In this document: in pieces, positions 18,747 to 57,820 of the stretch
Position numbering within the stretch: position 1 is the stretch's first letter
Layout of the letters: each line of letters starts with the position of its first letter
Origin: Coptis chinensis
Taxonomy: Eukaryota; Streptophyta; Magnoliopsida; Ranunculales; Ranunculaceae
Reading direction: 5' to 3'
NCBI GenBank assembly: GCA_015680905.1
Contig: CM027380.1
Span: 13,348,001-13,412,000 of the forward strand
Length of the DNA stretch: 64,000 nt
Position numbers and translations under genes: made by a program
The notes under the pieces: model-generated
Seen by the model: the letters and a program-made list of their open reading frames with translations, nothing else
Told to the model about the DNA's origin: nothing
Databases searched by the model: none

Positions 18747-19283
18747 ATATTGAGATATCTCAATGGCACTTCCAAATCGTGTTTGTGCTTTGGTGGAAGT
18801 AAGCCCTTATTTGAAAGCTACACTAATGCAGACATGGCAGGTGGTGTTAACTCGATGAAGTCCATCTCCAATTATCTGGTCACTTTTGCAGGGAGAGCAG
18901 TTTCTTGGCAATCTAAATTGCAAAAGTGTGTTGCCCTCTCTACTACAGAAGTCGAGTATATTGCAGCCACTGAGTGTTGCAAAAAGTTGTTATGGATGAA
19001 GAGGTTCTTCGATGAATTAGGGCTAAAGCAGAAACAGTTTGTAGTTCTATGTGACAGTCAGAGCGCCATCCATTTGAGCAAGAATCCGAGTTTTCATTCT
19101 AGATCCAAGCACATACACATGCGTTATCATTGGATTAGAGAAGTACTCGAAGACAAGCATTTGTGTATCGAGAAGATCCATACCGACAAGAACGGGTCGG
19201 ATATGATGACCAAAGTCTTATCGAAAGGTAAGTTTGATGTTTGTTGTGCTATTGCCGAAATGGCAACACACTCCTCCTGTTGA
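18747..19283 (+). pseudogene. Copia RNase H
   Basis: Continues directly after the TAG: ILRYLNGTSKSCLCF, YTNADMAGGVNSMKSISNYL, VSWQSKLQKCVALSTTEVEY, LWMKRFFDELG, CDSQSAIHLSKNPSFHSRSK, HIHMRYHWIREVLED. These are the usual RNase H motifs of Copia pol, with the catalytic acids in TNAD, TEVEY and CDSQSA. Ends at TGA 19281. Apart from the upstream nonsense codon this domain looks intact. Confidence 0.9.
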
Positions 19284-30829: not shown

Positions 30830-33520
30830 ATGCAAATGCATCAAACTATAACCTCAAATAATATTTAACAAAAATCAAAACACGGATGCAAATGCAAGTA
30901 TTAAATTAATCTAACCTTAAAGAATAATTAACAGAAAATCAAAACTTTGATACAAATACATCAAACTAACATAAAAAAATAATTGTCGGAAAATCGGAAA
31001 CTGGATGCAAATGCATTGAGCTAACCCTCAAAGATTAAATTAATGGGAAATCGAAATCTGGATCAACCTGCATTGAACTAACCTCGAAGAAAAATTAATT
31101 ATAAATTAGAAACATGATACAAATGTGTGGAACTAATCTTAAAAATTAATTAACTGGAAATCGAAAATCGGAAACTAGCTAGATGCAAATTCAATTTTAT
31201 CAAATAATAAACGAGAAATTAGAAATTAGATGAAAATGCATTAAACTAATCTCACAAAATAATTAATGGGAAATTAGAAACTGGATGTAAATGCATTGAA
31301 CTGACCTCAAAGAACAATTAACAGGAAATTGAAAATTAGATGCAAATGTATTGAACTAATCGAAAAGAATAATTAACGAGAAATCAGAAACTGGATGCAA
31401 CTACATTGAACTGATTTCAAAAAATAAATAACGGGAATTGGAAATTGGATGCAACTACATTGAACTAACCTCAAAATATAAATAATGAAAAATCATAAAC
31501 TACATGCAAATACATTGAACTAACCTCAAAACATAGTTGGGTTATATTGTGGTAATATTTCGATAAGTATAGTTTTGCATTTAAAATGGTGTTTATCTTA
31601 TCTCTTTCCGTATGATTGGGAACTCCTTGCTATTCAAGTAGCTTCAATTTATATGAACTTCACCTTATTAGGCAATCTCACAAAACTTCAATCAAACTTC
31701 TATTATTAAACAACAAAATGAAGTTGAAGGATTTTATCAAATGTGAGTTATTTTTTTTTAATCGAGAGTGAGGTTTTCATGTTATAAGAAATTTGGTTGA
31801 GTGATTAATATAATATTAATATATAATAGTTATGCATATTTACAAATATTTTTCAGAATAATTAATATAGCAACACCCGTTCATAGATAATCTTTGAATA
31901 TTCCACATAGTGAGTCATGCATAATTTAAATAATAATTAATGGAAAATCAGGAACTGGATAATCTTCGATGATCCCACATAGTAAATCAAGCATAATTTA
32001 CTTTCTATGTCATGTTTGCAAGGACACTACAGATAAATCAGTAGAAGTTGGTATTACACACCACATTGGATAATTAAAAGGAAATCAGAAACTGGATTTA
32101 AATACATAATAGAGCTCAAAAAGTAATTAATTACCGTAAAATCGGAAATTTTATGCAAATGCAATAAACTAAACTTAAAAAGTAATTAACTAAAAATCGG
32201 AAACTGGGTGCAATTGCATTAAACTAACGTCAGATAATAACTAATGTGAAATTATAAATTGGATGAAAATCCCTGAAAAATAATTAACAGAAAATCGGAA
32301 ACGGTATGCAAATACATCAAACAAATCTCATATAATAATTAATGGAAAATCGGAAACTGGATGCAAATACATTGAACTAACCTCATAGAATAATTGGTGA
32401 AAAATCGGAAACTAAATGCAAATACATTGAAATAATCTCAAAGAATAATTAACGGGAAATCAGAAACTGGATATAATTGCATCGAACTAACCTCAAAGCA
32501 TAAATAATCAGAAACTAAATGCAGATGCATTGAACTAACTTTAAAGAGTTATTAACAAGAAATCTAAAAACTGAATCCAAATGCAATGAACTAATATCAA
32601 AGACTAATTAATTAAACATTGAAAAATGGATAAAACTGCATTGAACTAATCTAAATGAATAATTAATGGGAAATTATATTATAAATTTGATGTAACTGCA
32701 TTGAACTAACCTTAAAAAATAATTAACGGGAAATCGGAAACTTGATGCAAATGCATTCAACTAACTTAAAAAGAACAATTAACACAAAATCGAAAATTGG
32801 ATGCAACTGCATTGAACTAACCTCAAAGAATAATTAACGGAAAACTAAAAACTGGATGCAACTGCATTAAACTAAAATCAGAGATTAATTAACGAGAAAT
32901 CAGAAATTGGATGCAAATGCATTGAAATAGCCTAAAAAATAGTTAACTGGAAATCAGGAGTCGGATGTAACTGCATCACGCTGACCTCAAAGCATAAATG
33001 TCTGTTTTTTTAGCCTTCTCACATAAGTAATTAGGAACCAAAAACGAAAGTGAGTTTATAAAAACAGACTCTTATATGTATGCAAACTGTATAGAAATTG
33101 TAAACTATCGAACTAACCTAGAAAAACAATTAATGGGAAATCAGAAACTGGATGCAAATATATTGAACTAATATCAAAGAGTAATTAATGGGAGATTGGA
33201 ACCTGGATGCAAATGCAATGAACTAATCTCAAATACTAATTAACGAAACATCAAAAATTGGATGCAACTTTACTGAATTAACCTTAATGAATAACTAACG
33301 GGAAATCATAAAGTGGATGCAATTGCACTGAACTAACCTCAAATAATAATTAACGAGAAATCGGAAACTTGATGCAACTGCATTGAACTAACCTCAAAGA
33401 ATAATTAATGAGAATTTGGAAACTAGATGCAACGTACTACATTAAACTAACCTCAAAGAATAATTAATGAAAAATCAGAAACTTGATGCAAATGCATTGA
33501 ACTAATAACCCTAAAACATA
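30830..33520. repeat. 55-bp minisatellite array of Helitron 1
   Basis: Units of about 55 bp containing GGATGCAAATGCATTGAACT, AACCTCAAAGAATAATTAAC and GGGAAATCGGAAACT. This is the reverse complement of the Helitron 2 unit. The array is interrupted at 31.51-32.08 kb by single-copy Helitron sequence. Confidence 0.85.
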
Positions 33521-33997
33521 TTTGTATTATATGTAGGGGGAATAAATGTCTCGACAAATATAGTTTTACATTTTAAGTAGTGTTTATCATAATTCTTTTA
33601 TTGTGATTGGGAATGTTTTGCTATTCAAGTAGCTTCAATATTATCTTCGCCACATTGGGCATTCTCACAAAACTTCAATCAAACTTCTATTGTTAAACCT
33701 AACAATAAAAAGAAGTCGGTAAGTTTTATCAAGGTTTGATGCTTCCTTTTTATAGAGCTATGCATAGTGGTGCAAGAAATTTAAATGAGTAATTAATATA
33801 ATTTTTATATCTCATAGCTATGCATAGTTACTAATATTTTTTAGAATAATTTAATATAACGGCACCCGTTCGTAAAACACGTTCATATGACAAATCTGTT
33901 CGAGTGGGAGTAGTGTATTATTTGAGGATATGGAAACAATCAATTTGTTTTAGTGATTTGTACACATTAGTAGTAAAAAGCCGGCGGTGATGATTTC

Positions 33998-34655
33998 TTG
34001 CTAAATCACAATAAATATAATAAAACTATTATACAAGCTAGATCGAGTTTAAGATAATTCTATTTGAAAATTACGGATTAATATCCTAAACCACAAAGTG
34101 AAGAGGCTATTTCAATTTGATCCCTTAGTTTCCAAATACTTATGCACCATAATCACTGCCCATTAACGTATTTCGGTTTATTTTTAATAAAAATATATTG
34201 TGATTCGAAAATTTGCCACTAAATCATCATAAATCTAAAAAAACTATTATACAAGCTAGATCGAGTTTAAGATAATTCTATTTGAAAATTACTGATTAAT
34301 ATCCTAAACTACAAAGTGAAGAGGTTATCTCAATTTGATCTCTTAGTTTCCAAGTACTTATGCACCATTATCACTACTCATTAATGTATTTCGGTTTATT
34401 TTCAATAAAAATATATTCTGATTCAAAAATTTGCCGCTAAATCACCATAAATCTAAAAAAAATATTATACAAGCTAGATCGAGTTTAAGATAATTATATT
34501 TGAAAATTATTGATTAATATCATAAACCACAAACTGAAGAGGCTATCTCAATTTGATCCCTTAGTTTCCAAGTATTTATGCACCATAATCGATGCTCATT
34601 AACTTATTTCAGTTTATTTTCAATAAAAATATATTCTGATTCAAAAATTTGTGTA
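33998..34655. repeat. three tandem copies of a 220-bp unit
   Basis: TTATACAAGCTAGATCGAG recurs at about 34028, 34248 and 34467; each copy continues TTTAAGATAATTCTATTTGA and ends near CAATAAAAATATATT. Copies are about 90 percent alike by eye. They lie between an old Helitron 3' end (about 33860) and the present one (34702-34731). Confidence 0.85.
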
Positions 34656-34701
34656 AAACATTTTGTGAAAACTTTTTCAGCACACAAAATATTTAATAGA
34701 T

Positions 34702-34731
34702 CCCGGGCGTATGCCCGGGTCCAAAATCTAG
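34702..34731 (+). terminator. Helitron 1 3' hairpin and CTAG end
   Basis: CCCGGGC (34702-34708), loop GTAT, GCCCGGG (34713-34719), 8-nt spacer TCCAAAAT, then CTAG (34728-34731). A 7-bp all-GC perfect stem is the expected terminator of rolling-circle transposition. Confidence 0.85.
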
Positions 34732-35051
34732 TTAAGTCTAGTTTGGGCCCAGTTTAAGTTAAGTTTTGGGACAGTTTTCTTTGTTTGTTTTCGGGCCGAA
34801 CTCAGTTGTGTTTTGGGCCAGTTCAGCCTAAAGTTTTTGGGCCCGTTTCTAATATTGCTTGGGACCAGTCCATTGGACTTAAAATAGATCTGTTTGGGTT
34901 TTCCAATGTTTAAACTTTCGGGTTCTAAGGTTGGGCTCGGCCAGTTGGGTCCGAACCATTACCTTGGTCATGAGCTCATGAGCCATGCACCTTTGCCCTT
35001 AGCCATGAACCATGGCTATGCCCATGAACCGGTCGAACATGGAAACGACAG

Positions 35052-35217
35052 ATTGACTTTGACCAGGACCTGTTGACTTTGACCAGGACAGTTTGACTTT
35101 GACCAAGACATGGTGACTTTGACTTTGACCATGACATGTTGAGTTTGACCTTGACCATGATGTGTTGACCTTTGACCGTTGACTTTGACTGTTGACCGTT
35201 GACTGGGAATGTTGACT
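35052..35217 (+). promoter_or_regulatory. dense TTGAC (W-box core) cluster in the LTR unit
   Basis: About 17 TTGAC cores by eye in 166 bp, arranged as GTTGACTTTGACC repeats. TTGAC[C/T] is the core of the W-box bound by WRKY factors. The cluster lies in the LTR unit, upstream of its 3' half. Whether it acts as an enhancer or is only a simple repeat is not known. Confidence 0.5.
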
Positions 35218-36439
35218 TTTCTAGTTTTTCACATATTTGATTATATAAAATATTGTCGTTATTGTATAACTTGGTTGGTCATTATCTAATTAAGATTTGA
35301 CGTGAGTAGTGTGTAAAACATATATATATATATTAGGCTTTGATTGTGGACTGTGGACTGTTTAATTGTGCTACGTTTTGTGTTGTATATTATATGAACA
35401 TATGTAGTAATAAAATGCTGTGGAAGCTTGTATAACCTTGGTTGGTCAATTATCTAATTAAGATTTGACCTTGATGTTGTGTATTTTTGACACGTGACGA
35501 TATTGAGATATTAGGAGATATTATATTCCTAATACGTTATAATAAAAATGTATGCGATACGTTGAAACATTGTGACAGGATATAATATGTTGGGATAGTT
35601 ATATTAATGCAATATCTTTTAGAAATGTATATACGCTCCATTATTATATATGTGAGATGCTACTATGAGGTAGCATAATATTGGTGAATATTTGCCCACG
35701 GGAGTGTGGTGTAGTGCAATAATATATTGGCACGTGAAAGAATGAAAGTGACTATGAGATATAATTGAGATGTTTCTAGATATTATGGCTTAGTGCAATA
35801 AGATAATTGACCTACATGTGATATAGTAGAAATGTTTATGAGTCATTAATGTATGACTTTTTGAATAAATTACGTAACTAAAAATCCCTAGAACCCGACT
35901 ACCACAACTCATGTGATTGGCCCTTCCGGCGTTTCAAGTTAATCACGAATGGCCTTGGCGGCCCTTCGGGCGTTTCATTAAAATTTGAATGGCCCTCCGG
36001 CGAGCCGAATAATAGTGGCTTGATTATTCCGTTCGCAAAATAGAAACGATGATGCATAATATTTTATGCCGAATAGTGGCGGTGCTTACATAGATTTGGC
36101 TTCCGTGAGGATTTACGGTGTCGCGGCATCCCGGGGTGGTTACGCATCGAGTGGCTCATTATGTAAAGGGAGGCATGTGGATGTACATGTTCGGCGTTGG
36201 GTAGCGATTGTGGTAGCGGAAAACTAGGTAAGACATAGAGACGACGTGATTTTAGGGACACGCAAAGGAAACCTTAATTAATATAATTATGGTAATATAT
36301 TTGTTAATGATGTATATGTAGATAGATGATTATATATGGTTTTGCAGAAGGGTGGGTCAAACTAATTACTTGGGCAGAGACGACCCACTCTGTGATTGAG
36401 CATGGAATGAGGTAAGTATATAATATGCTTGACTGGTCG

Positions 36440-36640
36440 TAGTTTAGTTAGAACCTAAGGCGCCTCGTGGAGGAACTACATGCCTTATTTATTATGTGTA
36501 TAGTTGGTTGTGTGGTTAGTGGGAAGTTAAGGCGCATCAGTGGAGGAACTACCTGCCTTAATTATTATTCTTAAGGATGTTTTATTAGTCGTTGAAAGTT
36601 AAGGCGCCTCGATGGAGGAACTAACTGCCTTGTGGATTGT
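36440..36640 (+). repeat. three-copy AAGGCGCCTCG...GGAGGAACTA repeat
   Basis: Three copies of AAGGCGC(C/A)TC with GTGGAGGAACTAC and TGCCTTA, spaced about 70 bp apart (near 36458, 36528 and 36602). They belong to the LTR unit. Each copy is a partial inverted repeat (TTAAGGC...TGCCTTA). Confidence 0.7.
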
Positions 36641-37869
36641 GTATATATACGTATTATTATATGTTGTTTTTAGGGCTACTCACACCAGCATTGTTTATAA
36701 TGCTGACCCGATTTGCATGTTTGCTTATCGGGTGTGTTCATTCAATGAACATAGTTGATAAGTTTTGACAGGTTTAGTGTTGAAGAAGGAAGGTCAAGGC
36801 AACGCTTGTGGTTTGCATTAAGCGTTACATCCACTACAACGTAATCAAAGACTTTTGTGACGGCTAGGAGGCGTCCACAATTATTTTTGTGGCCTTTACA
36901 AGGCGTTGAAATTTAAAGCGCCTCTATTGGTGTCGAATTATTTGTGACGCCAAAGTGCCGTCACAATTGACATAATTATCGACGCAGATGCGCCGTCACT
37001 AAATATGAATTACTAACGCCTTTGTCGCCGTCACTAAATGTGTATTACTAACGCTTCGTCGCCACTAAATTTGCATTTGTCGTCACTATTGAACTTTCGA
37101 ATTGCCCCAAAAAACCGGCGCTTATAACTTGGTGCCAAAACAAATTAACGCCTCGATCACAAGAATTATAAATTTGTCTTTTTTTTAAAATGCTTACTGA
37201 CGTCTGTCAGGCGTCACAAATTATTATTTATTTAAAAAATAATAATATTACTGACGCCTGTCAGACAGGCGTCACAAGTTATTATTTATTTATAAAAAAA
37301 TATTTTCTTTTGATTTCCATCCTAATATTTATATTTTTTTTCCCCTGAAATCGGCTGCATAAATACAACCACATAAACCCCAAACACATAATATAATTAC
37401 GACTACAAGCAAGTATATACAAGGAAAATCTTAGTAATAACCATCACCAAAATTTGACTAAGTATATATATCACTAAATGAATAACATGTAAATTAAAAG
37501 ATATAGATGTATGGATATAGCATAATCTACCAACATACTATTTCAATATAATCTCTATAGAACAACTCAAGATCACATCCTAAGAAGCAAGAGCATGGGG
37601 TCCTTGACGATTCTCCTGGCAGTCTCGCTCTAAAACAAACACACCCTGGACCAAGCCGGGCTACTACAGATCTTCGGGTGATGTGCATTTTTCCTTCATA
37701 AAACAACTAGACCTTAGTCAATACAAGCTAAGGAACCACTAAAACAAGCTATTGACTAGTCAATATACACAATTTTCACTAACCGCAATCGTAACATAAT
37801 ATGCTCGCCACATGCATGATTTCACAAAAAAATAAAGTTTACTAGCATTTAGACTGTTAAGAGTAGAAC

Positions 37870-37959
37870 CTTTTCAGCACTCCTAAACCTCGGCTTCCAA
37901 CCACGAGAATCAAGCTTCAAGTCATCAACTACATCACAAAGTTTATCCCTCGGATCGCC
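37870..37959 (-). pseudogene. captured 90-nt exon, unidentified
   Basis: Acceptor-like TTATTAG, then 30 codons in one open frame (GDPRDKLCDVVDDLKLDSRG, then WKPRFRSAEK), then a donor-like GTTCTACTC. Length divisible by three and clean flanks make a real exon likely. Source gene not recognised. Confidence 0.45.
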
Positions 37960-38535
37960 CTAATAAATCTTAAACACCACAAGAATCCGCTCCATTCAAG
38001 TACAAAATCAAACGAGAGAAAAAGATCATTTAAAATGGTATGAAACGGTTCTCGTGGCTAAATGGTTAAGGAATTATCGAGCTCTGCAAGCCAACCAAGG
38101 CTGCAGATGGTTTAGGAAGTTAATAAATATTCAACCAAAAGAAAATATATTGTACATGCAGCAAATTAGCAAGTGAATTTCACGAAGTTCTTATTGCAAA
38201 AAAGAGGTTTTGAGTTCCTTGACAGTAAAATTTCCATACACATGACAAAGTTACAAGACATTCTATATGAAAACCCGGCAACGCATTAACTTCTTCTATT
38301 CGGACATAAAAATGATGCTTTGTGTTGCAAAAACTATTAACATATGCTAACAACTTCAAGATGTGCAAATACATTCCCCTCAAGATCCCCGACATTATAA
38401 CCGTGGATTTACGTAGTCTCGTGTGTTTAAGAGTTCAGGATGGTTTGGGATTTGTTTAGACTAGTTATAAAATTCTAATTTGAAACCTGAGTAAAACCAA
38501 TTAGCAATAAAATACAATAAGAAACTTAAACACAC

Positions 38536-39740
38536 CTGGATGAGCTTATTGGCATTATCGTAACGCCATGTTCTTCCAAAACCTCACAGAGCTTGCCTAC
38601 TATAATGTTTGAGCCTTTTAGTGCATCACAAAATACCTGCACAATAAAGCATAAGTAAACTTGTTACTCCATGTAATGTCAATCATCTGGATAATGGAGC
38701 ATATAGCCCTTGACTAAAGACAGTTCATCGATCGAATGAACCAAACAATGCAAAGATAGACACAAATGCATTGTAATTATTTTTGGTGAAATAGATATAA
38801 TATTTAAATTCAGAACTAGAGAAGCTAACCATATTTGTGCGTAGTGAAGCAAAGATCCACTTTGAGTCCTTTGATTTCATTCAGTCCATCTCAAGATAAA
38901 ACCAAGTAACGATTGATTCGATTCACTTCATCCATCCAGTTTAAAACCGATGGAAATCACAATCGATAACATCCGCTACTAGATACTAAGTAGCTTTTAG
39001 CAATATACATTGCTAATGAATAATGAGACCAGCCAAGGGAATAACGGCGTGATGTCGAGGTAGCATCAATATATAAGAAAACATAGACAACCCGCTATAA
39101 TTTTTGCTTTCCTGTGATCCCCTCGAGCTTGCAAACACTCTCTTGCAATGCAACAAAAGCTGCAGCCAAGATAAGATCCCCACTTGCCTCATTCCACCAT
39201 CTAATGTTTTCCTCGGTCTTCTAGCCCGAAATTGAAACAAATAAGTTGCTATCAACTCTCGAAAAGAATTTAGCAAAGAAAAAAGACCAATGCAAACCAG
39301 GAGAGCTTACACGATTTGGCAAGGCCGGCCATTAACCGGTAAGTAGAGTTGTCAATTTCACTACCTCGAAATCAGCATTACAACACGGTGATTTTTATCC
39401 CAAGACATCCACCTACATATATGTACTCTAGTCCGACTCGACTTAACTACACAAAGTATCAAGATTAGACATTTGTATCCTTTATACAGACATATAAGCA
39501 ATTTAGTATTTGAAAATATAAAACCTTCATGAATCCAACCCACATACACATACACATTGTTACTTTTCAGCTTTTTGTCTTTTCGTTTTTGGTCCAAAAC
39601 ATTGAGGAACTATATTATCATAGCCACATACACATTGTTACTTACCACTGATGCATTAAATATGCGTGCTCCATCTATGTGAAGCTTCAGGCCATGTTTT
39701 TTCGCTACCTCTCCAACTTGATCGGTATACTCAATAGAGA
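38536..39740 (-). pseudogene. captured L-threonine aldolase fragments
   Basis: Threonine aldolase is a PLP enzyme splitting threonine to glycine and acetaldehyde. Three exon pieces lie in the correct order on the minus strand. (1) 39646-39740: [20 protein letters not shown] then ARIFNAS, with a good donor. (2) about 39105-39225: RPRKTLDGGMRQVGIL, then after a frameshift AAAFVALQESVCKLEG. (3) 38536-38636: KLCEVLEEHGVTIMPISSSR between AG and GT. The family's PLP-lysine region between pieces 1 and 2 (the SKGLGAP type) was not found, and piece 2 is frameshifted, so no enzyme can be made. The first piece is joined directly to a clathrin fragment, showing assembly from different loci. Confidence 0.8.
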
Positions 39741-39803
39741 CGATTTGAAGACGATTTCAACAACACTAGTGTCACTTTCTGCCCTTTGTCTGCCAAGAAA
39801 ATA

Positions 39804-39965
39804 ATTTGGATTCATCAAAGCGGAATCAGCAGTAATAGGCCTTCTCAACGGCTGATTAGGCATACTCATATCAATAATAACAACACTATTCTGCGGTGAT
39901 GTTTCTCGTACACATATATACTTATCCGATTCCATCGTTACATGTGTAATTCCAATACTAGGCAA
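39804..39965 (-). pseudogene. captured clathrin heavy chain fragment (N-terminal propeller)
   Basis: The minus strand encodes [40 protein letters not shown] and DSALMNPN, the highly conserved start of the clathrin heavy chain N-terminal beta-propeller. Relative to the usual protein a few residues are missing between SIGI and THV, and the similarity stops right after MNPN, where the frame runs into unrelated sequence and then threonine aldolase DNA. A short fragment, not a gene. Confidence 0.85.
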
Positions 39966-40684
39966 CTACAAATCACATAAAAACATAATCAGCTCAACAT
40001 TCAATAATTCAGATCCAACAGGAATCGGGGTTGTAGTAAGTGGGGAGTTTGACTTGCCTTTAGGCCCACTATCATCAACTCTTATCCTCTTACGGGAAAG
40101 AATCCGTTGTGGACATAGTAAACCCGCTACTAGGAGCCGCCCTTAGCCCATTCTCGACTTTTAGGCAGTCATCGAGGGTTGACGAATTCCTTATCAAGCT
40201 AAAAGCAAACGGAAGGTACACCTTACTCATGAACAAAAATATGCAACCTCTGGGGGTAGAATATTTCTAGTGGACCTTATGCCAAAACCTCGGAAGATTA
40301 TTAGTAAATGGTTTCATGGGTGACTAGGTCTAGTCGTCTATCCAATCTAACTAACTGTCGCTTCGAGGGTAAAACCCGACAACTCATGATAAACTATCAA
40401 GAAATTATAATATACTCGAGATCAAAAGCTAGTTCTTGAAATAATACAACGGAAAATATTTCCTTCGCTGAGACAGACTCTAGCTGAGCATCAATGAGAT
40501 TCAGAGTTTCTTCAACCAGGCATGTTAAACTGTCATCGGTAACTTTGCGGTGTCCTTATTGTGTTCTATAGAAACGACTTTTAACATCCCGGCTGTCGAC
40601 CTTGGCAACAAACAAATAAAAAATCTCTTAATCCTTTTCAGTTGAAATAAATAAATAATGGAATCATCTGCTCAGATTTCTCAC

Positions 40685-40970
40685 CTAAAGCTGGAGCAGC
40701 TGGTGGTACTTCAACCTCCTGCGCTAGGCGATTCCAACCACGCCTAACTTTCCTGTCTAAGTCCATCACCTGCAAAGGAGTAATAAGCATTAATAACCCA
40801 AGTAACAATGAGAAGCGTTTAACAAGATGGAATGAAACCCACCAATCTCTCGCAAAACTGTGCGAGCTCAGCTTTGAACTTGGGCACATGCGCATTGCTT
40901 GAACACAGAACAAAGCGGCCAACAGAGTTGCTCTAGACCGTGGGTTGGACACTTTAGCTTCCCAGACAAG
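40685..40970 (-). pseudogene. two captured exons of an unidentified gene
   Basis: Exon 40685-40769: acceptor-like TTTGCAG, then VMDLDRKVRRGWNRLAQEVE and VPPAAPAL, then donor GTGAGAAA. An upstream exon near 40850-40970 encodes in one frame VPKFKAELAQFCERL before a possible donor GTGGGTTTC, or in another frame SNPRSRATLLAALFCVQAMR. The basic/acidic helical look suggests a cytoplasmic or nuclear protein. I cannot name the source. Confidence 0.45.
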
Positions 40971-42506
40971 AATATGAAACTTTCATGTGATATGCTAAAG
41001 AAGAATAAGCGGAAAGTATGAATATGAAAAATCCAATACCACGAATTCAAAAAAATCATTATTTTGGTCTCAAAGAAAGAAGACTAAATCAGTTCAAGTA
41101 GTGAAACAAATCACAAATCACAAGACACATAGTTATTGTTTTTATGCACGAGAAAATCATCCACAGTTTCATCACTAGAAATCTTCCCTCTAACCATTGA
41201 CAAGTGTCAACTTTCTATTTGTCCCACAAGCCCACATAGAATATGTTCCCACGTATAAAATTCACAACTCCGCACACACACACACACCCCTGCCCCTTTC
41301 TCTTTCTCTTTCTCTTTCTCTCTCCTTCTCTCGGTGCTGAAATAAAATAATAACATTGAGCATAGTGAAAGACATGCAAATAATCGAAATAGAAGTTATA
41401 TATAAGAAACCAATTCAAGTTAAGACAACCCGAGATGCAGAGGCTCTTTACTTCTGAACATTACTTTGAATCAGCTCATTTGTATACCATCTACGTCATG
41501 AGAGAGACATTGGCCCCATGCATTGGATGAATCAAGGAATGTGCAAAGATTACCAATCAAAATAAACACTCGACAATGAAACGAGAACAATCATACATGA
41601 CGCTATTTCTTGGGTGACCCATACTAATAACCAAGTGCTTTAATCCATTGGGAGACATATACCACTACCAATCTAAATAAACACTAAATAACAGAGCGAG
41701 AACAATCATACATGACGCTCTTGGGTAACTATACTAATAATCAAGTGCTTTAATTCATTGGAAAATATATACCAATCACTATACCTAAATTAAACATAAA
41801 GTCCCCGAGGTAAACATTGTAATTGGATCTGCATTATATGACATATTAAGCAAATGAAATACATGGTTTTGCATTCTTTATAACTTACGTGTGTCTCCAA
41901 GAGTGACTCGAAACTTACTTGATGGTTTTGCATGACAAGACATCCAAGACTCAATTTTTAAGCAACTCGGAGGAACCGCACATCCCCAAAGATGTATCAT
42001 TTATTAAAATTATGAACGCGGTTGCCATCACAATATGGTTAGAATAGCCAAATTATTTCCCGCGTCTTTGATACAAACATACTTGGCAGTTAAATTAGAA
42101 ATTCATAGCTAACCGATACAGGATCGACTAGCAAACCGTGTCTACTTCTTCGAGGATTAATTGGACCAATTAAGAGTTTTTGCGAATGATTTTCATGTCC
42201 AAAGACCGACTAACTACACCAAAGAGAAACCATCGAAGCTCTAGATTTTTGAACATTGGGAGAAAAAAATGTTACCTTGGTAGCTTCTTTCACTTTGAAT
42301 AAATTATATAACCACCGATACCATCGTAAGTCACCAACCAATAATCTGACTCATCTTGAATGTCACTTAAATGCTAAAAGATATCATCTACCACTACTTA
42401 AATATCGGTTTACATTAATGCTACAATCAATGACAAGCAAATAACTTCTCAATTAATTCAATCAGAAAAAAAGTATTTAAGACGAATTTGGCGAGAGAAT
42501 ACTTAC

Positions 42507-42617
42507 AGATTCCAAATGAGAGTAAGGAACTTGACGAAGTTAACATCTCCAAGACAAGCAGCCAAGACTCCATATATCATTTGCAAGCCCATAGCCATGA
42601 CTCTTCCCGTTGACAAC
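42507..42617 (-). pseudogene. captured MAP3K-like protein kinase exon
   Basis: After the acceptor GAAATGTAG the minus strand encodes VVNGKSHGYGLANDIWSLGC, which is kinase subdomain IX with its invariant Asp (DIWSLGC), typical of MEKK/MAPKKK-type kinases. It is followed after a small frame disturbance by VPYSHLES and a donor GTAAGTATT. Only this exon is present. Confidence 0.7.
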
Positions 42618-43856
42618 CTACATTTCACAAAATGTATTATGACTTAACAAAACATTACATACATTATTCATGAATTCAAAAGGCAGATCATCCATGCATT
42701 GATTGGTATTGAACAATTAAAACTGACTTCCCCAATCAGATTGAAGAAACCGACAATTCCATATGGAAATTACCATTTAAAAAAAAAAATCTAATTGCTA
42801 ATCTAATGCCCTAAGAATTACCTTTTGTTGTTGTTGTTGTTTCCCCTTAGCTCACTCACTTGTCTCTTCTAGTGGAAGATCCTCCAATTGTGTCTTTGGA
42901 ATCCAACTATAGTAGAACCTCTTGTTTTGATGCATAAACAAGAATGTGTGTGCAAGGAATTCCATTATTAGATCATGTCAAACCTTGCTTTGGAAGGAAA
43001 TCGTCGTAAAAAATAGCGGCATGTTAACTCATTCACCAAGAAAATTATAAACCCTAGAAAACGAAATCAAGAATTGCAAACCCAAAACCCAAATCAAAAA
43101 AAAAAACTAATCTTTATAGAAACCGACCTTTAAAATATCGGAAAGATGGTACCTTTGTCATAAGATGAAGATTTTGAGATGAACAAACTACCTCTTTTAG
43201 TTCATTTTCATCAAAACTTGGAGAAGATGAACGGAAAACGGAGTGGAATTCAATTCATTGAGAAAAGTGGAGAAGAAGATTGAGAAAAGTGGGATGGGGT
43301 TTCTTCTTGTGTGTTGAGAAGAAATCGCAAAGATTGGATTTTGACGCCTCTTCCTTCGCACTGCCAAACACGTGATCTCAGATCTTTATTACGTTGATGC
43401 CTCCTTGCCGTCACTAAGTTTTCAACAAATTTCATAAATAAAGTAAAACGAATTTTTTAGATTTATTGTGGCCAAACAACAATATCGACGGCACTTTGAC
43501 GTCACAAATTTTCTGACGCCTATTTGGTGTCACAAATTGGGAAAAGCCCCTGTCACAAAAAAGCTATTATGGTGTAGTGATCTCCGGATACGTTTTGTTT
43601 TTCCTTTGAGGTGATATAGATTTTCAGTTGAGATAAGGTTATTTGCATTTTCATTTGTAAATTGTTTTTGGTAATGAAGAGGACTGTTGTTTAAGTTAAA
43701 ATTTTTATTAGTTTTTAATTATCCGCATATTTTAAACTGTTTATGGGTTTTTGGAAGTGGAGAGTGCGTCACACCTCGGAGATCGAAGAGTCGGGGACAA
43801 ATAATGTTTTTCCGAATTCTGTCGAAATTCGGGGTGTGACAATTATTATTTAAGAT

Positions 43857-44204
43857 TAGTTTAATGCAGTTGTATCTATATTCCGATTTTCTATTAATTA
43901 CTTTTAAATATTAGTTTAATGCTTGCATTTGCATCCAGTTTCCGATTTCCCATTAAATATTATTTGAGGTTAGTTCGATGTATTTGAATCTAGTTTTCGG
44001 TTCTCCATTAATTGTTCTTTGACGTTAGTTTCATTCAGTATTATATATGTTTTGAAATATTTGTCATTATTGCTTTGCCGTTATTTTTTTTTTCCATTTT
44101 CTATTATATATTTTGTGATGTTATTTTTTGTATAATTTAATTTTTCACATGTAATTTGTTTTGGTTTGGTATATAATTTATTTAAGCCCAACGTCCACTT
44201 TAAC

Positions 44205-44245
<41 letters not shown>

Positions 44246-45308
44246 GACCAGAATTGTGATATATATATATATATATTGTTGAAAATTTATAAATTTATAA
44301 ATTTAATTGGAATCTGTCGTAATTATTGTGACCAGAATTGTGATTTTTTGAATCCTTAACTATGAATAAATGTTGAAATCCTATTGTGGATGACGCATCA
44401 AATCGAAACGGTTTTAGAAAAATTGTTTTCGGTGGAAACTATTGTTTTAAGCAATTTAGTTTTTTTGTCTCATATTTTTTTTCGTAATTGGCTATATTTT
44501 TTGGGAAAAGTTAGAGACTCTATGAAACTTTAGATATGATTGTTTTTGTGAAACTCTAGATGGAATTGTTTTTTCGTAATTAGTTATAGTGTTTAGAAAA
44601 AGTTAGAGACTCTATGAAACTTTATATGAGATTGTTTTCTTATTTATATCATACTTTTTTATAAGTAGTAATAGAGTTTAGAAAAAACTGGAGTCCCTAC
44701 GAGTGTTCCAAAAAAATAGATTGGTGAGGATGTTCCAATTCTTTATATATATATATAAAGAATTGGAATATGTCATAATTATTGTGGTCGTAATTGTGAT
44801 TTTTTGAATCCTTAACTATGAATAAATGTCTAAATCACACAGTGGATGGCGCATCAAATCGAAATGATTTTAGAAAAATCGTTTTCGGTGGAAATTATTG
44901 TTTTTAGCAATTTAGTTTTTTGTTTACTATTTTTTTTTTCGTAATTAGCTATATTGTTTAGAAAAAGTTGGAGATTTTGTGAAACTCTAGATGTAATTGT
45001 TTTTTCATAATTAGCTATAGTGTTTAGAAAAAGTTAGAGAGTATGTAAAACTCTAGATGGGATTATTTATTTATTTATATCCTACTTTTTTTTATATATA
45101 GAATTTAGAAAAAACTGCTTTTATATTTAGTAATAGAGTTTAAAAAAAATTGGAGTCTTTGTGAGGATATAGTTATAATATATATCTAAAGATAAAGATA
45201 AATATTTGTTTCCTATATTTTATCTCCTATTTTTTCTTAATTAGCGACACTCTAGAAAAGCTTCCTCAATTGAAAAGGGTAGAGCTATAATATATATATA
45301 TATAAAGA
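43857..45308. repeat. Helitron 2 5' part: resumed minisatellite, TA runs and a 457-bp tandem duplication
   Basis: 43.86-44.04 kb is the continuation of the 55-bp minisatellite. TA microsatellites lie at 44212-44241 and 44257-44276. A 457-bp step separates two copies of TGATTTTTTGAATCCTTAAC (44341 and 44798), with the following TTTCGGTGGAAA(C/T)TATTG also repeated. Motifs reading TCTTTA(T/G)ATATATA on minus occur near 44.74, 45.19 and 45.31 kb. Confidence 0.65.
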
Positions 45309-45831
45309 TAAAGACATTATTAGGAAAATATTTTATATGGTTTCCGTAAAATATTTCCTCTATTTTTTACACTAAAATAATTCAATCATTTACAGTATCG
45401 AAGGGTATTTTGCTCCAAAATCCCTCAGAAATACTAAAGATGTACTGATGAAAATTTAAAAGTCCAATTTTGCTAGTGTATTCTTATGTTCATTTTTGAC
45501 TTTCGACTTTCGAGACCCAGTGTTACTTATCGATAATGAGAGCAATTTTATAATGTTCCATGTTCCATCATTTTAAAATTAGTCTTTTTATTGCATTGAT
45601 CCATGATTTACACACAAGATGCACGTACAAGTCACGTCTATAATGAGTAGATCAACCATAGTCGATGGCGATTTTTTATTATACTATTGGTGAGCAATCA
45701 CTGATTATATTTTCAATTCGTGAGCTTCATTTAAAAAAATAACAAATATAATTTTGATTTTTTCCCATGAAAATGAATCAGTTATATGGAATGATACACA
45801 TTTTTACAAGTCACTTAAACTCTTTCTCTAA
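45309..45831. other. intergenic, 3' flank of gene B
   Basis: No gene or repeat is recognised; it would contain the 3' untranslated region and polyadenylation signals of gene B. Confidence 0.4.
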
Positions 45832-47644
45832 TTACTCGCGATCAGCACGTTGAACATCACCTCTTTCTATTTTTTCTTCAGGGACTTTCACATTATTTGC
45901 CTTCACTCCTACCTGTACCTGGTGGCCCTTGATGGATTTTTCTAACATTTCTTCTACTTTATCACCTACATCGTCCACCTACATTTGCATTAGAAAATTG
46001 CTCAGTATTTCCAAACAAATTCATTTCCCATGTGAGCTTTCTTGCTTTAAGCTGTTCTGTACTTCAGAATGTGTATGTATACATATTATTGCTAGGAAAC
46101 ACACGGTGAAGTAGAGTCATAAATGTTTGAATAAAAAAACACGTTTAAGAAATGAAAGTGTATCACAATTCACAAAACAACCATTGAAATATTGAATTGT
46201 GAAATGATGTAACTGTTGATTGACGTCACAAGCAAAATGGTTGAGTTACTCCAAAGTCAAAGACGCAACACATGCAAATTTTGACAATTCAAGGGATGTA
46301 GTTTAAATGGAAAGTTCTCATGGGATGGCTTTTTGTTTAAAACAGAAGGTTAAAAATGTTTAATGCAACTTGGGATTGACTAGTACAAAACAATGTTCAG
46401 AAGGCTTGGTTATAAAAATAAGAAGCAAGGAATCTTTAATTGGTAGGAAGTAGGAACTAGGAACTTCAAGTGAAATAAACACGTGCTCGATGTGGTCTTG
46501 TATTGCAATTTATTAGACAACATATAGAAAGTAAAATTTGTTTAAAGTGAAAGTAAGACCTTGTCCAAGAGCTCCTGTGTTAAATCAGCACCCTTGATTA
46601 GTCCCTCAGCTACCTCATCAATCCTTTCGATCGCCTGCTTGAGCTTTGAACCATCAGGAAGATCATCTGTAATGTCGTCGGCTATCTTGTCCACTTTCAC
46701 GGCGACCTCTTCTATTATCTCTGACACACATTCAATCGTCTGTAGGGTTGAATCAAATTTATCTATACATCCAACAGCACAAGGATCAATACATCAGCAT
46801 TTTGATGTGATAAAGGAAACAATTCTGCAGTAAAGGTTGTGCTTATTTACTTCGCAAACTTTTCCAAGTTAGATCTTGGGCTAAACAGGGGTTATACAAG
46901 GACTTGACAGGCTTATATGATTTTCCATCACCAAAATCTCAAAGAATATAATGCATAGGAGAATATCATTTTGCAGTTTTGAAAGTGCATTGATGATTTT
47001 GTGTTTATCAAAATTGTACATACAGAAGGTACTTACTTTTAAGTGCAAGCAATGGTCCCCATTTGCTCTTGAAGAAAGGTAAAATCATCGGTATGATAGT
47101 CAACAACATCCAGTTTGACCTGATTCATACACAAGTAAGACGAAAATTATACATCCACCAAGTGTAATTATACATCCACCAGTTAAGAAGAAGGGGAACA
47201 AAAGTATATATCCACCAAGTAGAGAAGTTACCATCCAGGAAAAGGGGATCCAGAAGGCATTGGAGGTGTTGGAGGAAGGTTGTTAAGTGCATTTAAATCC
47301 CTGCATTCAACCAATACAAACAAATTAACGTGTGAAAAAGAATCTACAAATTCAACTAAGTAGTCATAAGAGGAACTAGAAATGTAGAACAAAAACTAAT
47401 CAATCAATGAAGATTACATCTTTATAGTACGATGGGCTCTCCCTCGACGATTGATATTGGACAAACTTAAATGTTTACTCGTTGAGTCGCAATATCCATA
47501 CTTCGCTGTGTGTATCCATGGGAGAGAACATGTATTATGGACAGAAGAAAAAGATCTATATTGAGAACTATGATGAAGTTTTTCAAACTGGTGAGAACTT
47601 AAAGAATTAGTTGTTGTAGTTAACATAGTTGATAGAACACTCAT
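45832..47644 (-). CDS. gene B: paralogue of gene A, probably plastid-targeted
   Basis: Five exons on minus: 47418-47644, 47232-47300, 47037-47119, 46560-46762, 45832-45978; total 729 nt, 242 residues, all GT-AG. Exon 1 encodes a Ser/Thr/His-rich, acid-poor leader (MSVLSTMLTTTTNSLSSHQF) like a chloroplast transit peptide. Exon 2: DLNALNNLPPTPPMPSGSPF then PGW. Exon 3: WMLLTIIPMILPFF, a hydrophobic segment, then KSKWGPLLALK. Exon 4: SEIIEEVAVKVDKIADDITD and DLPDGSKLKQAIERIDEVAE. Exon 5 has a longer charged tail than A or C. Role unknown; the amphipathic helix suggests self-association or a lipid or thylakoid surface. The start is fixed by the TATA-like box about 110 bp upstream and by similarity to gene C. 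Confidence 0.85.
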
Positions 47645-47753
47645 TCGCTGAAAAGGTTATCCGCTTATGAAAGCTCTCCAAGCTCAAATGAATTACTTGT
47701 TAAGGAGAGTGTGATGCTTAGTGCTTGTTGTTCTTAAATTCCAACTTCTATGA

Positions 47754-47764
47754 ATATATATATA
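47754..47764 (-). promoter_or_regulatory. TATA-like box of gene B
   Basis: A TATATATATAA run about 110-120 bp upstream of the gene B start codon, the same distance as in genes A and C. Confidence 0.45.
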
Positions 47765-49052
47765 ATGGCCATTTGCAAGCATGCTTTCGTAATTTATATC
47801 CAATTATCTAAATCCCAATGTCGTCGTTTTCTGTAACTTGCCAACTTTGCCGTGGTTGTACAATATGATTTTTATACTTCCACTTACTATTTTTTTCTCT
47901 TACTTTTTTCCCTGTAGTGGTTGTACTTTGAAAGTCTTTGGTAGATAACGTGTGGATAATATGTTAAAACGAGGTCTAATGAAGCATATGAGGAAATAAT
48001 TAGCGTATCCGTATTGGTTTTTATATGATCTACTGCTGATGCAGCCTTGCAGCCTGCACATGTATTAAACGGTTTAAACGAGGTCTATTGGATTCATTGA
48101 TTGACCTAGCTTGTTTCTTTACCGCAATTTACACATTTCCATCCAGTAAAAAACATTTCTGGGTCGATGTTTATTTGTTCACTAATATTTTAATTATTTA
48201 GAAGATTTTGCCAGAAACAGATCATCCAAGTTGAATAAAGAAATTTGGTATACAAGTCTATCTGGTGAGTCTGGTCTGGATCCATAACTATTGGACTAAA
48301 ATTTATCATTTTAAGCTAAGGCTTCAGTTCGCATTGTTGGAATTATTTTTCTTCAAGTATGTGCAACATATATCCAATTTTGGTGCAAGTATACCAACGA
48401 TTATCGATCTCATTTGCGCAAGTTTCACTCCAAAAAGTTGATTGTGAAGAAGCTTGATTTTAAAGCTTTTGACATGACTTTCAGGAATTCAGTCCAGAGT
48501 ATTGTAGATTCAAAATCTGAAGAAAAATGCAATTCAGTATTTCAGGCTTTCAGCGATGCGGCAATGCAAAATGATGCAATCGATCCAGTCCATCGATAAC
48601 TTTCTTTGTTATTTTCTTATCTCTTTTTTATTAATTTATTGGAGTAATTTTTATAAGTTCAACTCTTCCCATTCAATATTCCCGTACGTAAGGTCCAGCA
48701 CAGCTACTGCACAAGTCAGAGGCCGTTCAGGGCACCCTAGTTGGTATCATGCGTGTTCCATGCACGTTCTCCTTAATTAAGTTTTATGTCATAAAAAATT
48801 GAAGTTGTTCAATAGAATAGAAATATAAAATTAGCCCAAACAGATCATTACAACATGTACTTTTTAATGCCAACACCATGTCATTATCTAAGTCATTAAT
48901 CAATCTAAGATTTTGTGAAAAGAAAAGCCAAATGAATTGTTCTCCGATCCTCAAGGAAGATTTATACAGAACGCCAAATGAATTTTCTATTAAGTGTATG
49001 ACAAGGATTGATACACTCATACACACTATCACCTAACGGCACTTAATGCTGT
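47765..49052. other. intergenic between genes B and C
   Basis: No gene is recognised. A 61-codon plus frame at 48414-48599 (begins MRKFHSKKLIVKKLDFKAFD) has no splice context or known motif and is not called. The 3' flank of gene C lies at the right edge. Confidence 0.4.
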
Positions 49053-53583: not shown

Positions 53584-53649
53584 TCGTTTCCTTAAGAAAA
53601 GAACAACCACTCTTTTCTCAAGCCCACAAAGCTGGTTAGAAAAACCACA

Positions 53650-54810
53650 ATGGAGCCCAACCTACAAGCATTGGCAGACCAAATGAAGACTATCCAAGAA
53701 GCCTTCATCACTTTACAACAAGAAAACCAGACAATGCAAGAGCAGGCCAACTCCAACGCCAACAATGGCACCACAGAATCCGGGGAGCATAACACTGTTA
53801 CAACCCTAACCAACACCACCAATCAGCGTTTAGAAGACTTCGCACAAAAACTAGAGAAGTCAAGCGAAAGAGCCAACGCGATCCAGATCACTCAAAAGAT
53901 GCTAGAGACGTACAAAGCATCACCATTCATCCAAGATATCCGAGACAAACAACATCCTTCAGAGTTCATCTAACTAAAGTTCCCGTTGTATGACGGTACC
54001 TCCTGCCCAGGCGAGCACGTAGCTCGCTTCGGCCAAATACTATCACTCTACAGCCATCCTGACTACGACTACCTGAAGTGCAAACTATTTCCAACCAGTT
54101 TAAAGGACGGAGCAATAGACTAGTTTTACATACTCCCTCCAGATTCGATCAACAACCCGGCCGGACCTTTGCGAGGCGTTAAATAGCGAGTTCGTCCATG
54201 CCGTAAAGAAGCGCGACCGACGGACTCCTTGTTTCAACTCAAGCAAGCTCATGGCGAAACGATCCGAGCCTTCCTAGGACGTTTTAAGAAGGACCTCCTC
54301 TCGCTGGAGTCAAGACTCAGTGACGGTTTTGCAATTTCTGCGTTCACAAACACCCTCTTGGACGAATCCAACCTAGCAGGGTCCTTCATGCGCAACAAGC
54401 CAGACACCTCAGCCGACCTGTATCACAGATTCGACAACTACATTGAGTACGAAGAGTGGATGGCCAAGTGCAAAGGCAAAGAGGTCCTCGCAATTAGCAA
54501 CGAGCCAGACCCCAAGGAAAGCAAAAAATATTCAAACAACAACAACAACAACAAGAGATCCAACGCCAGCAAACCCTCATACACAAAGAGGGAATTCTCC
54601 AACTTCTCCAGAACGCCAAGTCAAATCCTGAAGAAAATATATACAGCACCATACTTCAAACCAAATATCAACAAAGTGATAGCCATACCAGAGCGTCCAT
54701 ACTGCCATTTCCAAAAACTCCACCACCACGACACCAATGATTGTCGGAGCCTTAAGCACTACCTCCAAGACCTAGTGGAGGAAGGCAAATTAAAAGAGTT
54801 CTTGCCATAA
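53650..54810 (+). pseudogene. Tat gag, broken
   Basis: Starts MEPNLQALADQMKTIQEAFI with a coiled-coil N-terminus. The gag core follows across two stops: KFPLYDGTSCPGEHVARFGQ, LFPTSLKDGAID, then FQLKQAHGETIRAFLGRFKK. The C-terminus has YCHFQKLHHHDTNDCRSLKH and YLQDLVEEGKLKEFL, the Tat-type Cys/His motif. Stops at 53971 and 54121 and a frame change near 54190. Confidence 0.85.
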
Positions 54811-54828
54811 AGTGATCTAAGGCACAAG

Positions 54829-55630
54829 ATGGATGCCAAACGCCACAGAAGCAGAAGCCGCAGCAATGAACGACCTGCCAACAACAAAAACAGAACCAGG
54901 AGCAAATCAACTCGACGATCTAAGTTTCTAGGTCGGTCAAGGCTCAACATGAGACAGCACTCCTCCGACCAAGAGGAGGACAAAGTAATCAACATGATTA
55001 CAAACACCTCAAACGACAAAACTTCAGGTTGGGAGAAGTGCAGAAGAGTGGGAGCAATCCAAGAAATCTACCACCTCTCACACAAAGCCGAGATTATCAA
55101 CCCCACCGACCCTAAGAGGACAACATCAATTTCATTCACAAAAGAGGATCTAGACAAGGTGTGTCTACCTCACAATGATGCATTGGTAGTGCATGTCAAA
55201 ATCAACGGTTGGACAGTCAAAAGAGTCCTCATTGATCCAGGGAGCTCATGCAACATACTGTTCTATCAAACATACAAGGACATGCACCTGCCGGACTCGG
55301 TGATGATAGACCCCCAATGCACCGCTCTATGGGTTCAACGAAGATCGTACATATGTCATCAGAGACGTAATCCTACCAGTCTCCATTTGCGAAAAATAGG
55401 ACATGGTCAAAACTTCAACACCCTTTAGTGTGATTGATGTCAGGTCGTCCTATACTGCCATTCTAAGACGTCGTTGGATTCACAAAATCCAAGCAATTCC
55501 ATCAACCCTACACCAGGTCCTACGATATTCTGGTCCCAGAGGCATCATGGAGCTCAGAAGCAACCAACTAGAAGTTTACCAATGCAATCAGGTCAGCACT
55601 ACGACCTCACCCTAGCCTCAGGTCGTCGAA
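54829..55630 (+). pseudogene. Tat aspartic protease region, broken
   Basis: Begins with an Arg/Ser-rich stretch (RHRSRSRSNERP), then NDALVVHVKINGWTVKRVLI and the active-site motif DPGSSCNILF, where D-x-G-S-S is the catalytic Asp loop. A frameshift after DPQC puts the following part (MVKTSTPFSVIDVRSSYTAI) in another frame. Confidence 0.8.
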
Positions 55631-55984
55631 GCTAAGGACGTCCCAGAAAGGCAGGATCCTCAAACATCCAAGCCCTCCAGCAACGGCATCAGAAAAGCTT
55701 ACAGGAAAACAAGCTCATATAGAACCAGGAGAAAAAGTCAATTTGGGCACAACTGATGACCCAAAATTTGTTTATGTAGGGGCTGACTTATAACCCAAGC
55801 TCAAAGAGCAGCTTGTCAAATTTCTATCTCTCAATAAAGATGTTTTTACTTGGTCTTATATCGATATTCTAAGAATCGACCCTCAAGTCGCTTGCCACAA
55901 GTTGAATTTAGATCCAACCATCAAGCCTATTAAACAACGACCTAGGAAGCTAGCACTCAAGTTTCAAAAAGCCATAACGAAGAG

Positions 55985-56816
55985 ATAGAAAAGCTCAAAA
56001 ATGTTGGATTCATCGGAGAGTCGAAAAATTCGACGGCTTGCCAACATAGTAGTCGTTCCAAAGAAGAATGGTCAGGTACGACTCTGCATAGATTTCACCA
56101 ACGTCAATAAGCACTGCCCAAAAGACAGCTTCCCCCTGCCAAGAATCGACATACTGGTAGACCAAACTTGCAGGCATGAGCTTTTGTCATTCATGGATGC
56201 ATACAGTGGGTACAACCAAATACCACTTGCAGAAGAAGATCAGGAAAAGACATCCTTCATAACCGAGCAAGGTACGTTCTGCTATAACGTCCTACTGTTC
56301 GGCTTGAAGAACGCAGGAGCGACCTATCAAAAACTTGTCACCAAAATGTTCAAAGACTTGCTATGAGACACTATGGAGGTCTACATAAACGACATGGTGG
56401 TCAAAAGCGAAAAGGCAGGTGATCACATCTCCCACCTACAAGAGACCTTTGAACGACTTTGCCAAAACAAGATGAAGCTCAACCCAGCCAAATGCGTATT
56501 TGGAGTAGCCTCAGGGAAATTCTTAGGTTATCTCATCTCACAAAGACGCATTGAAGCAAACCCAGAACCGATACGAGCTCTCCTTGAAATGCCAGAACCA
56601 ACCACAAAGCAACAAATCCACAAGTTATCTAGCATGGTTTCAGCCCTCAACAAATTCATTTCAAGAGCATCTGACAAATGCAGACCATTCCTGCAAATAC
56701 TCAAAAAGGGAGCAACATTCACTTGGACAGACGAGTGTGATAAAGCCTTCACCGACCTGAAAGCTTATTTATCAACTCCACCCGTCCTATCCAAACTAGT
56801 GAAGGAGAAACACTAA
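55985..56816 (+). pseudogene. Tat reverse transcriptase, broken
   Basis: Motifs in order: NIVVVPKKNGQVRLCIDFTN, VNKHCPKDSFPLPRID, SFMDAYSGYNQIPLAEEDQE, TFCYNVLLFGLKNAGATYQK, then after a TGA at 56364 the catalytic box VYINDMVVKS. The second catalytic Asp is Asn (YIND instead of YVDD), so it would be inactive. The thumb and connection follow: KFLGYLISQRRIEANPEPI. The upstream part 55640-55985 is also pol-like but frameshifted. Confidence 0.9.
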
Positions 56817-57820
56817 GGATATACCTTGCAACTACCGACTTCGCAATCAGCTCAGTTCTCTTTCGCGAGCATGATGGAGTCGAAAAGCCGGTCTACTTCA
56901 CCAGCAAGACGTTGGCAAATGCAGAAAAGCACTACTCTCAGAGTGAGAAAGCAATACTTTCTTTACTCTACTCAACTCGGAAGTTCTGGCATTACTTCCA
57001 ATCTCACAGCATCAAGGTTATCACTGACGTACCCATTAAACAGGTATTGAGTTCTAACAACAAAACAGCCCGCATGGCCAAATGGGCTGAAGAACTCAGA
57101 GAACATCACATCGAGTTCGTTCCCAGAATGTCTTGCAAAGGTCAGGTCGTTGCTGATTTCTTGGCAGATTTCCCCGTTTTAGACATCCACTGGGAACCCG
57201 AGCCAATCACTTCACTCCATCAACAAGCCACCCCAGACACATGGCACCTCCACGTAGATGGCGCATGCAATAACACTGGTAGTGGGTGGGGGTCTGTATT
57301 AACTTCACGGAGGGAGCCCGGCCTACGTAAATCAATCAAAATCGATTTTAACGCCCAACAACGGCGAGAATCTGAAGCATTGATCACAGGCCTCGAATGG
57401 CACAAAGAACTACAAGTCTCAAAGCTTAAAGCTTATAGCGATTCCCAGCTAATCTTCAAGCAGATCACCAAAGAATATGTCACGAACGGAGCAAACTTGG
57501 CAAAGTGTGCTCAATTCGTTTATGACATAATCAGCTCGTTCAAAACATTCTCCTTAGACCATATTCCTCGAGAGGACAACAGACATGCAGATAGCTTGGC
57601 TTTCCTAGCCTCCAAAACACAAGAGGCATGTCCGACCACAGTCTACATTGACATTCTGGAACAACCTACTTACCAAAAAGAAAATATCAACAGCCTAACA
57701 GATTTCCAGCCCTCATCCGAAAAAGAGATCAATCAATCGTGGATGGGCCCATTCCTCAAGTTCATCTTACATGGTGAGATCCCATCAGAAACAAAGCATG
57801 CTCGTGCAATACAATTCTGA
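56817..57820 (+). pseudogene. Tat RNase H plus second (archaeal-type) RNase H
   Basis: First RNase H: YFTSKTLANAEKHYSQSEKA ILSLL, then HSIKVITDVPIKQVL and AKWAEELREHHIEFVPRM. The second domain begins WHLHVDGACNNTGSGWGSVL, with RESEALITGLEW and AYSDSQLIFKQITKEY, and DHIPREDNRHADSLAFLAS; catalytic acids D-E-D-D are visible. This extra domain is diagnostic of the Tat lineage. The frame 56912-57820 is open; its start is shared with a frameshift near 56820. Confidence 0.9.

Follow-up and report, generated by a model that had tools for sequence, protein, structure and literature searches.

Going by the title of a 2004 paper by Kawasaki and Nitasaka, the Tpn1 family of Ipomoea reportedly consists of En/Spm-related elements that capture host genes. 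In soybean, the 5.7-kb CACTA element Tgm-Express1 of the wp allele contains pieces, introns as well as exons, of five host genes unrelated to one another; it sits in an intron of F3H and was shown in that report to be spliced into transcripts (PMC1947982). CACTA elements of Chenopodium likewise carry captured fragments beside transposase genes, Neprosin and AP2 among the captured genes, and the words "threonine" and "clathrin" appear nowhere in the main text of that study (PMC8978399). For elements of the Pack-TYPE, to which Pack-CACTA belongs, a model has been put forward in which neighbouring insertions fuse and leave ends in the interior (PMC8903248). The element considered here is a 6,748-bp CACTA transposon of Coptis chinensis that carries pieces of an L-threonine aldolase gene, a clathrin heavy chain gene and a protein kinase gene. 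It is found in a 64-kb window, by which the whole stretch of DNA analysed is meant (C4:13348001-13412000 of the 935.6-Mb assembly). A literature search found no paper uniting captured clathrin with a CACTA transposon.

This element is a Pack-CACTA, containing captured host coding DNA with donor loci, lacking a detected transposase and occurring in multiple copies with common ends. Its anatomy is close to that of Tgm-Express1 as reported (PMC1947982), in that pieces of unrelated host genes are held within a CACTA element, but the donor genes are different, no gene family is detected in its flanks, and it is known here from sequence alone. With the Pack-CACTA elements portrayed in the main text of PMC8903248 it shares non-autonomy, CACTA ends and coding DNA from several loci, and the fusion of neighbouring insertions described there matches two of its relatives, L014 and L023. 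In contrast to that main text, the clathrin piece is here also found in sisters with matches to the transposase tnp2, and a hybrid joint can be read to the base. The kind of element is already known from Pack-CACTA and Tgm-Express1, and what is notable is the set of related forms together with this joint. Neighbour fusion is the published model for the gathering of several genes, and in this family the apparent intermediates stand side by side in one genome, namely elements with clathrin and tnp2, elements with trapped old ends, a long composite, shorter derivatives and two located donors, which renders the model testable joint by joint. With a probability of about 0.87, the element is a non-autonomous Pack-CACTA built by capture, joining of lineages, replacement of an end and internal deletion.

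The boundaries of the element can be read directly. It occupies window positions 36832-43579 with termini CACTAC...GTAGTG, the exact terminal inverted repeats being CACTACAAC from 36832 and GGTGTAGTG up to 43579, and directly outside each end lies a copy of the 3-bp target-site duplication ATC (36829-36831 and 43580-43582). Subterminal motifs (GACG[CG]C, G[CG]CGTC, GTGACG and CGTCAC), counted in both orientations, number 17 in the left 500 bp and 6 in the right 250 bp, with none in interior 500-bp steps, and the left-end count is equalled in 1 of 635 sliding windows across the 64 kb. The left terminus with its subterminal repeats extends over 36832-37331 (plus strand, inner border approximate) and the right terminus with its own over 43340-43579 (plus strand, left border approximate). 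Together with tnp2 in relatives, the terminal repeats, duplication and subterminal repeats confirm membership in the CACTA (En/Spm, CMC) superfamily. Both the exact-ended CACTA element with its duplication and the lack of a transposase had been claimed in an earlier note on this DNA, and both claims hold: the ends lie at 36832 and 43579 with ATC on either side, and a six-frame search of the element against Pfam brought up no transposase family to an expectation value (E) of 1.

Within these ends, the clathrin piece (39803-40021, minus strand) comprises the intron, splice acceptor and exon of a clathrin heavy chain gene, cut in mid-exon. Compared with solved structures, the exon is matched by clathrin heavy chains at E 4.3e-15, and the family Clathrin_propel (PF01394) is matched at E 0.0015, short of the Pfam cut-off. 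Against C8:79129526-79129765 the piece shows 4 mismatches in 219 bases (98% identity) and one 21-bp gap, the alignment running over intron, acceptor and exon; the acceptor ends at 39966, splice signals having been judged by eye and not by systematic scoring. Because C8:79751818-79752057 matches equally well, the donor is either of these two places. The two C8 places, with equal scores, are 0.62 Mb apart, and an equal-scoring pair is also found on C7 (89085881 and 89175520); it is possible that these pairs are segmental duplications or assembly artefacts. Clathrin repeats (PF00637) occur at 79.145-79.149 Mb on C8, where the donor exon lies about 15 kb ahead of them, and twice on C7, at about 89.11 and 89.22 Mb. 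Genomic places matching the element are labelled L009 to L031, and the presence of a block in them was judged within the stretches examined. An identical 21-bp gap, at the equal donor position, is common to all 11 aligned elements (the window element, L009, L010, L013, L014, L015, L017, L020, L025, L026 and L031), and for this reason a single capture of clathrin followed by spread is favoured.

The threonine aldolase piece (38010-39740, minus strand) is the captured 3' part of the gene with introns included, and its donor lies at C4:95685211-95688198. Its alignment to this locus falls into three blocks, which are 96, 89 and 92% identical to the donor and include introns, and its borders are confirmed by short donor stretches. 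With minus-strand frames given to Pfam and stops written as X, Beta_elim_lyase (PF01212) is found in the element at E 1.5e-9, and a single exon matches structures of L-allo-threonine aldolase in the PDB at E 4.5e-7; the whole region in one frame gave no match to the PDB. Since the introns of both aldolase and clathrin were captured, genomic DNA was taken and not complementary DNA (cDNA). The genome contains 12 matches to PF01212 (from all 21 candidates scored), of which C4:95683427-95683858 is the sole one covering profile positions 1-142, C5:70965619-70965966 covering positions 48-170, and further exons of the C4 locus lie at 95685192 and 95686985. The captured piece starts within an exon and ends within an intron ahead of another exon, seen by eye in L047, and a GTAAGT splice donor is preserved after "NASV", again by eye. 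At 39520-39528, a 9-bp overlap marks the site of a missing 252-bp donor piece, which is also absent from L009, L010, L014 and L031 and is kept in L011, L012 and L019 (97% over 321 donor bases). A similar 8-bp overlap at 39262-39269 marks the site of a 986-bp donor segment that is absent from every element copy whose alignment spans the point. The 986-bp difference may be a gain by the donor or a loss by the elements, and the overlaps are compatible with deletion through microhomology as well as with insertion of a transposon.

A third recognisable piece lies in a block at 42051-42760 (minus strand) with a protein kinase exon at 42501-42617. Pkinase (PF00069) is matched at E 0.17 by the whole frame and at 0.0013 by 39 residues (one stop as X), both short of the Pfam cut-off, and in the PDB the piece is matched best by Nek7 (E about 0.007), with PLK2 and MAP3K5 next (both about 0.04). 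Sister copies contain a fuller exon, LEMLTRQVPYSHLES, which seems to resemble plant MEKK-type kinases, and on a reading of its motifs the piece looks MAP3K-like. The earlier note had described parts of at least three unrelated host genes (threonine aldolase, clathrin heavy chain and a MAP3K), all on one strand and many with good splice sites. Clathrin and threonine aldolase have been traced to parents in the same genome, on C8 and C4, while the third piece stands as a protein kinase of unproven MAP3K class whose donor was not found. All three recognisable pieces do lie on the minus strand, and among the splice sites the clathrin acceptor and the aldolase GTAAGT donor are borne out by eye.

The remaining interior consists of two unnamed blocks. 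Block U1 (40017-40897, minus strand; sub-blocks 40017-40212, 40219-40392 and 40395-40897) contains exon-like frames, and its sub-blocks reappear elsewhere in other combinations; at C5:83.53 Mb pieces of U1 are present in the same order as in the element. When ten short frames, taken from U1 and other parts of the element, were compared with Pfam, just two weak, implausible matches came up; U1 gave two matches to the PDB with E above 1, and for the U1-related locus on C5 (L041) three frames were without a Pfam match. Block U2 (40890-42054) has a copy of 97% identity at C2:89957930-89959090, without CACTA ends in 1.5 kb on each side and without a Pfam match, and this place is regarded as a candidate donor only.

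One alternative, although unlikely, is that a chimeric minus-strand transcript of the element is functional as a small or regulatory RNA acting on the clathrin heavy chain, threonine aldolase or kinase gene. Three recognisable pieces on one strand, a preserved splice acceptor and donor, and a clathrin piece of 98% identity to its donor would suit such a role, as would L020, in which the clathrin piece and tnp2 lie on the same strand. Furthermore, according to a review (PMC13317346), maize Helitrons, Pack-MULEs and Sireviruses give rise to small RNAs from the sequences that they have captured. On the other hand, the clathrin exon reads across the joint into the aldolase exon out of frame, with a stop at 39705-39707, which disfavours a clathrin-aldolase fusion protein, and in-frame stops are found in several sister clathrin pieces (e.g., L010, L017, L025 and L026). 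Nor is there a Pfam match at E 0.1 in six frames of either flank (32000-36831 and 43580-48500). Insertion inside a recognisable host gene was rejected, given these 4.8-4.9 kb per flank without a Pfam match. The plus strand of the element gave no Pfam match at E 1. As read from the sequence, a protein product of the element is unlikely, and any effect would possibly be exerted via chimeric RNA or small RNA.

Relatives of the element are numerous. The left 469 bp are found in at least 40 places including the window (43 matches, 3 of them second pieces, with 40 of 133 candidates scored), and 20 of the 39 other places were compared in detail. At least one captured block is common to the window element and 15 of these 20, whereas L016, L018, L021, L022 and L028 resemble it at the left body and ends only. 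The left body itself (37332-37953, borders approximate) is element-derived, most of 37405-37939 being common to L017, L025 and L026 and 37835-37953 being found at many places. A scan for exact ends covered 21 sequences (the 20 left-end relatives and L031), and a start and end with a matching 3-bp duplication were found in eight of them: L009 (ATC), L013 (CCG), L014 (GCT), L018 (ACT), L020 (CCT), L022 (AAC), L023 (AAT) and L028 (ACG). Copies at unrelated sites would imply past movement of the element family. Inside its outer pair of ends, L028 contains a second CACTACAAC start at 1123 and a second GTAGTG end at 7278 (element orientation), perhaps another fused pair.

The same blocks occur in different combinations among the sister elements. 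L017, L020, L025 and L026 contain the left body and clathrin but lack aldolase, a shortened aldolase piece accompanies clathrin in L013 and L015, and L023, L024 and L027 contain blocks of a second lineage without clathrin or aldolase. Between aldolase and clathrin, the joint and filler occupy 39741-39802, and the sequence from 39757 onward is common to the sisters of the clathrin lineage. The two lineages meet at 40017-40021. Here, in L020, AACAG gives way to host intron sequence, ATCTG; in L023 and L027 AATAG is succeeded by GAATC, and in the window element AACAG is succeeded by GAATC. This joint is the clearest proof of a hybrid between two sister lineages. When the endpoint of the clathrin donor alignment was compared in ten sisters and the window element, the end at C8:79129526 was common to the window element, L009, L014 and L031, whereas L013, L015, L017, L020, L025 and L026 continue past it into the host intron and L010 ends 16 bases short.

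This joint also bears on the possibility that each gene piece was captured serially into one line of elements, without fusion of sister lineages. Serial capture is a published mode in the account of PMC8903248, and the fuller aldolase piece of L011, L012 and L019, with its 252-bp donor segment, would agree with it. However, the joint at 40017-40021 unites sequence that is found separately in two lineages, and the six sisters with an uncut clathrin intron show no match to the second block in the stretches examined, which together render serial capture alone rather improbable. The presence of several exons, with splice sites, on one strand might suggest a single host gene of the ordinary kind, or retrotransposed cDNA, lying between CACTA-like motifs. 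This reading was rejected as practically untenable, since the pieces keep their introns, match loci on two different chromosomes (C8 and C4) and are enclosed by transposon-type ends with a target-site duplication and repeat copies.

Six sisters were tested for a transposase. The tnp2 family (PF02992) was found in four, L013 (E 2.3e-52), L015 (2.7e-68), L017 (2.2e-32) and L020 (1.9e-55), all of which carry the clathrin piece; L020 also contains Transpos_assoc (1e-16) and L017 also DUF4218. At about 1590-1721 of L023 (element orientation) there is a fragment of HSP70 (PF00012, E 5.3e-6), a further captured gene, and L020 gives a weak match to the mitochondrial carrier family (PF00153, E 0.0035, short of the cut-off) in the frame shared with its clathrin piece.

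The right-hand part of the element tells of a different kind of exchange. The tail (42774-43339, right border approximate) corresponds to DNA that L014 and L023 have on the far side of an older, internal 3' end, GTAGTG followed by AAA being found there inside the outer end (at 4578 and 6728, respectively). Between inner and outer end, L014 and L023 share 95% identity over 1.6 kb, and at least 12 places, the query included, contain at least 1,160 of 1,182 bases of this tail of theirs (40 of 158 candidates scored). Such inner 3' ends are the pattern expected if the transposase used a neighbour's far end. The window element contains the distal part of the tail only, from 42774, linked to the kinase block via a short filler (42761-42773, borders approximate) and an A-run, presumably the joint of an internal deletion. 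The body of L031 equals that of the window element up to 42760, and beyond it L031 continues with 493 bp at 90% to L025 4848-5334; farther along, L025 contains a DUF4216 frame and a stretch with 90% similarity to the part of L013 in which its tnp2 match lies. In L031, a copy of the tail is situated some 14 kb away from the left end. Given the shared body, the run toward a presumed transposase region and the distant tail copy, the window element probably arose by internal deletion from an L031-like form.

Taken together, a course of events may be proposed that starts with long CACTA elements equipped with transposase genes, which acquired pieces of host genomic DNA in the region separating these genes from the left end. 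Two lineages, one with the clathrin and aldolase pieces and one with the unnamed and kinase pieces, would have recombined at a short shared sequence, after which the right end would have been replaced by that of a neighbouring element, enclosing the intervening DNA. An internal deletion would then have taken out the transposase region. Because both ends were retained, the remaining 6.7 kb would have moved with transposase supplied by relatives and, on insertion, duplicated ATC. The ends and target-site duplication, the two donor loci with their introns, the hybrid joint, the inner 3' ends of L014 and L023 and the tnp2 matches of sisters with the clathrin piece can be read from the sequence; that the steps followed in this order, that the element moved in trans and that a deletion took place is what we infer. 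It is also conceivable, though this is tentative and the odds are somewhat against it, that captured pieces can be exchanged as cassettes within a pool of CACTA lineages that bear transposase. Composites would then grow mainly by recombination and end-swapping, as phage mosaics do, and not by capturing anew each time, and non-autonomous elements would be snapshots of the pool.

Several observations weigh against the reading of the element as a composite mobilised Pack-CACTA. An exact end pair was not seen in 13 of the 21 relatives scanned, where an end may have decayed or lie outside the stretch. The window element and L009 both have the duplication ATC, yet their flanks are unrelated; homologous flanks were therefore ruled out, and the shared ATC looks like a coincidence. 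On the side of the donors, one TAA stop lies within the PF01212 match of the C4 locus, so that the intactness of this gene is not assured, and the C8 donor exon and the C8 clathrin repeats are presumed to form one gene. A search by DNA for the kinase donor gave 16 candidates, all scored, all at 94% or more and read as element copies, and a search by protein gave element-like places and four distant ones (41-48% identity), with no donor among them. Likewise, no clear donor of U1 was found. As for the transposase, the tnp2 genes of the sisters may not be intact, the match of L013 being divided over two frames; L023 gave no transposase at E 0.1 in three frames, and L025 has DUF4216 yet no PF02992 in the three frames given to Pfam. 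Finally, a transposase in L031 is presumed from the part of its sequence that was read.

Captured pieces such as these also carry a warning, as annotators may label them genes. Elsewhere in the window, open frames look by eye like those of other mobile elements, one resembling a MULE/FAR1-type transposase at 4522-7249 (minus strand) and two resembling polyproteins, of copia type at 15253-19283 and of gypsy type at 53596-58922 (both plus strand). Between 29001 and 30000, guanine plus cytosine (GC) amounts to 44% with a GC skew of +0.445, and the neighbouring stretches have 27-29% GC.

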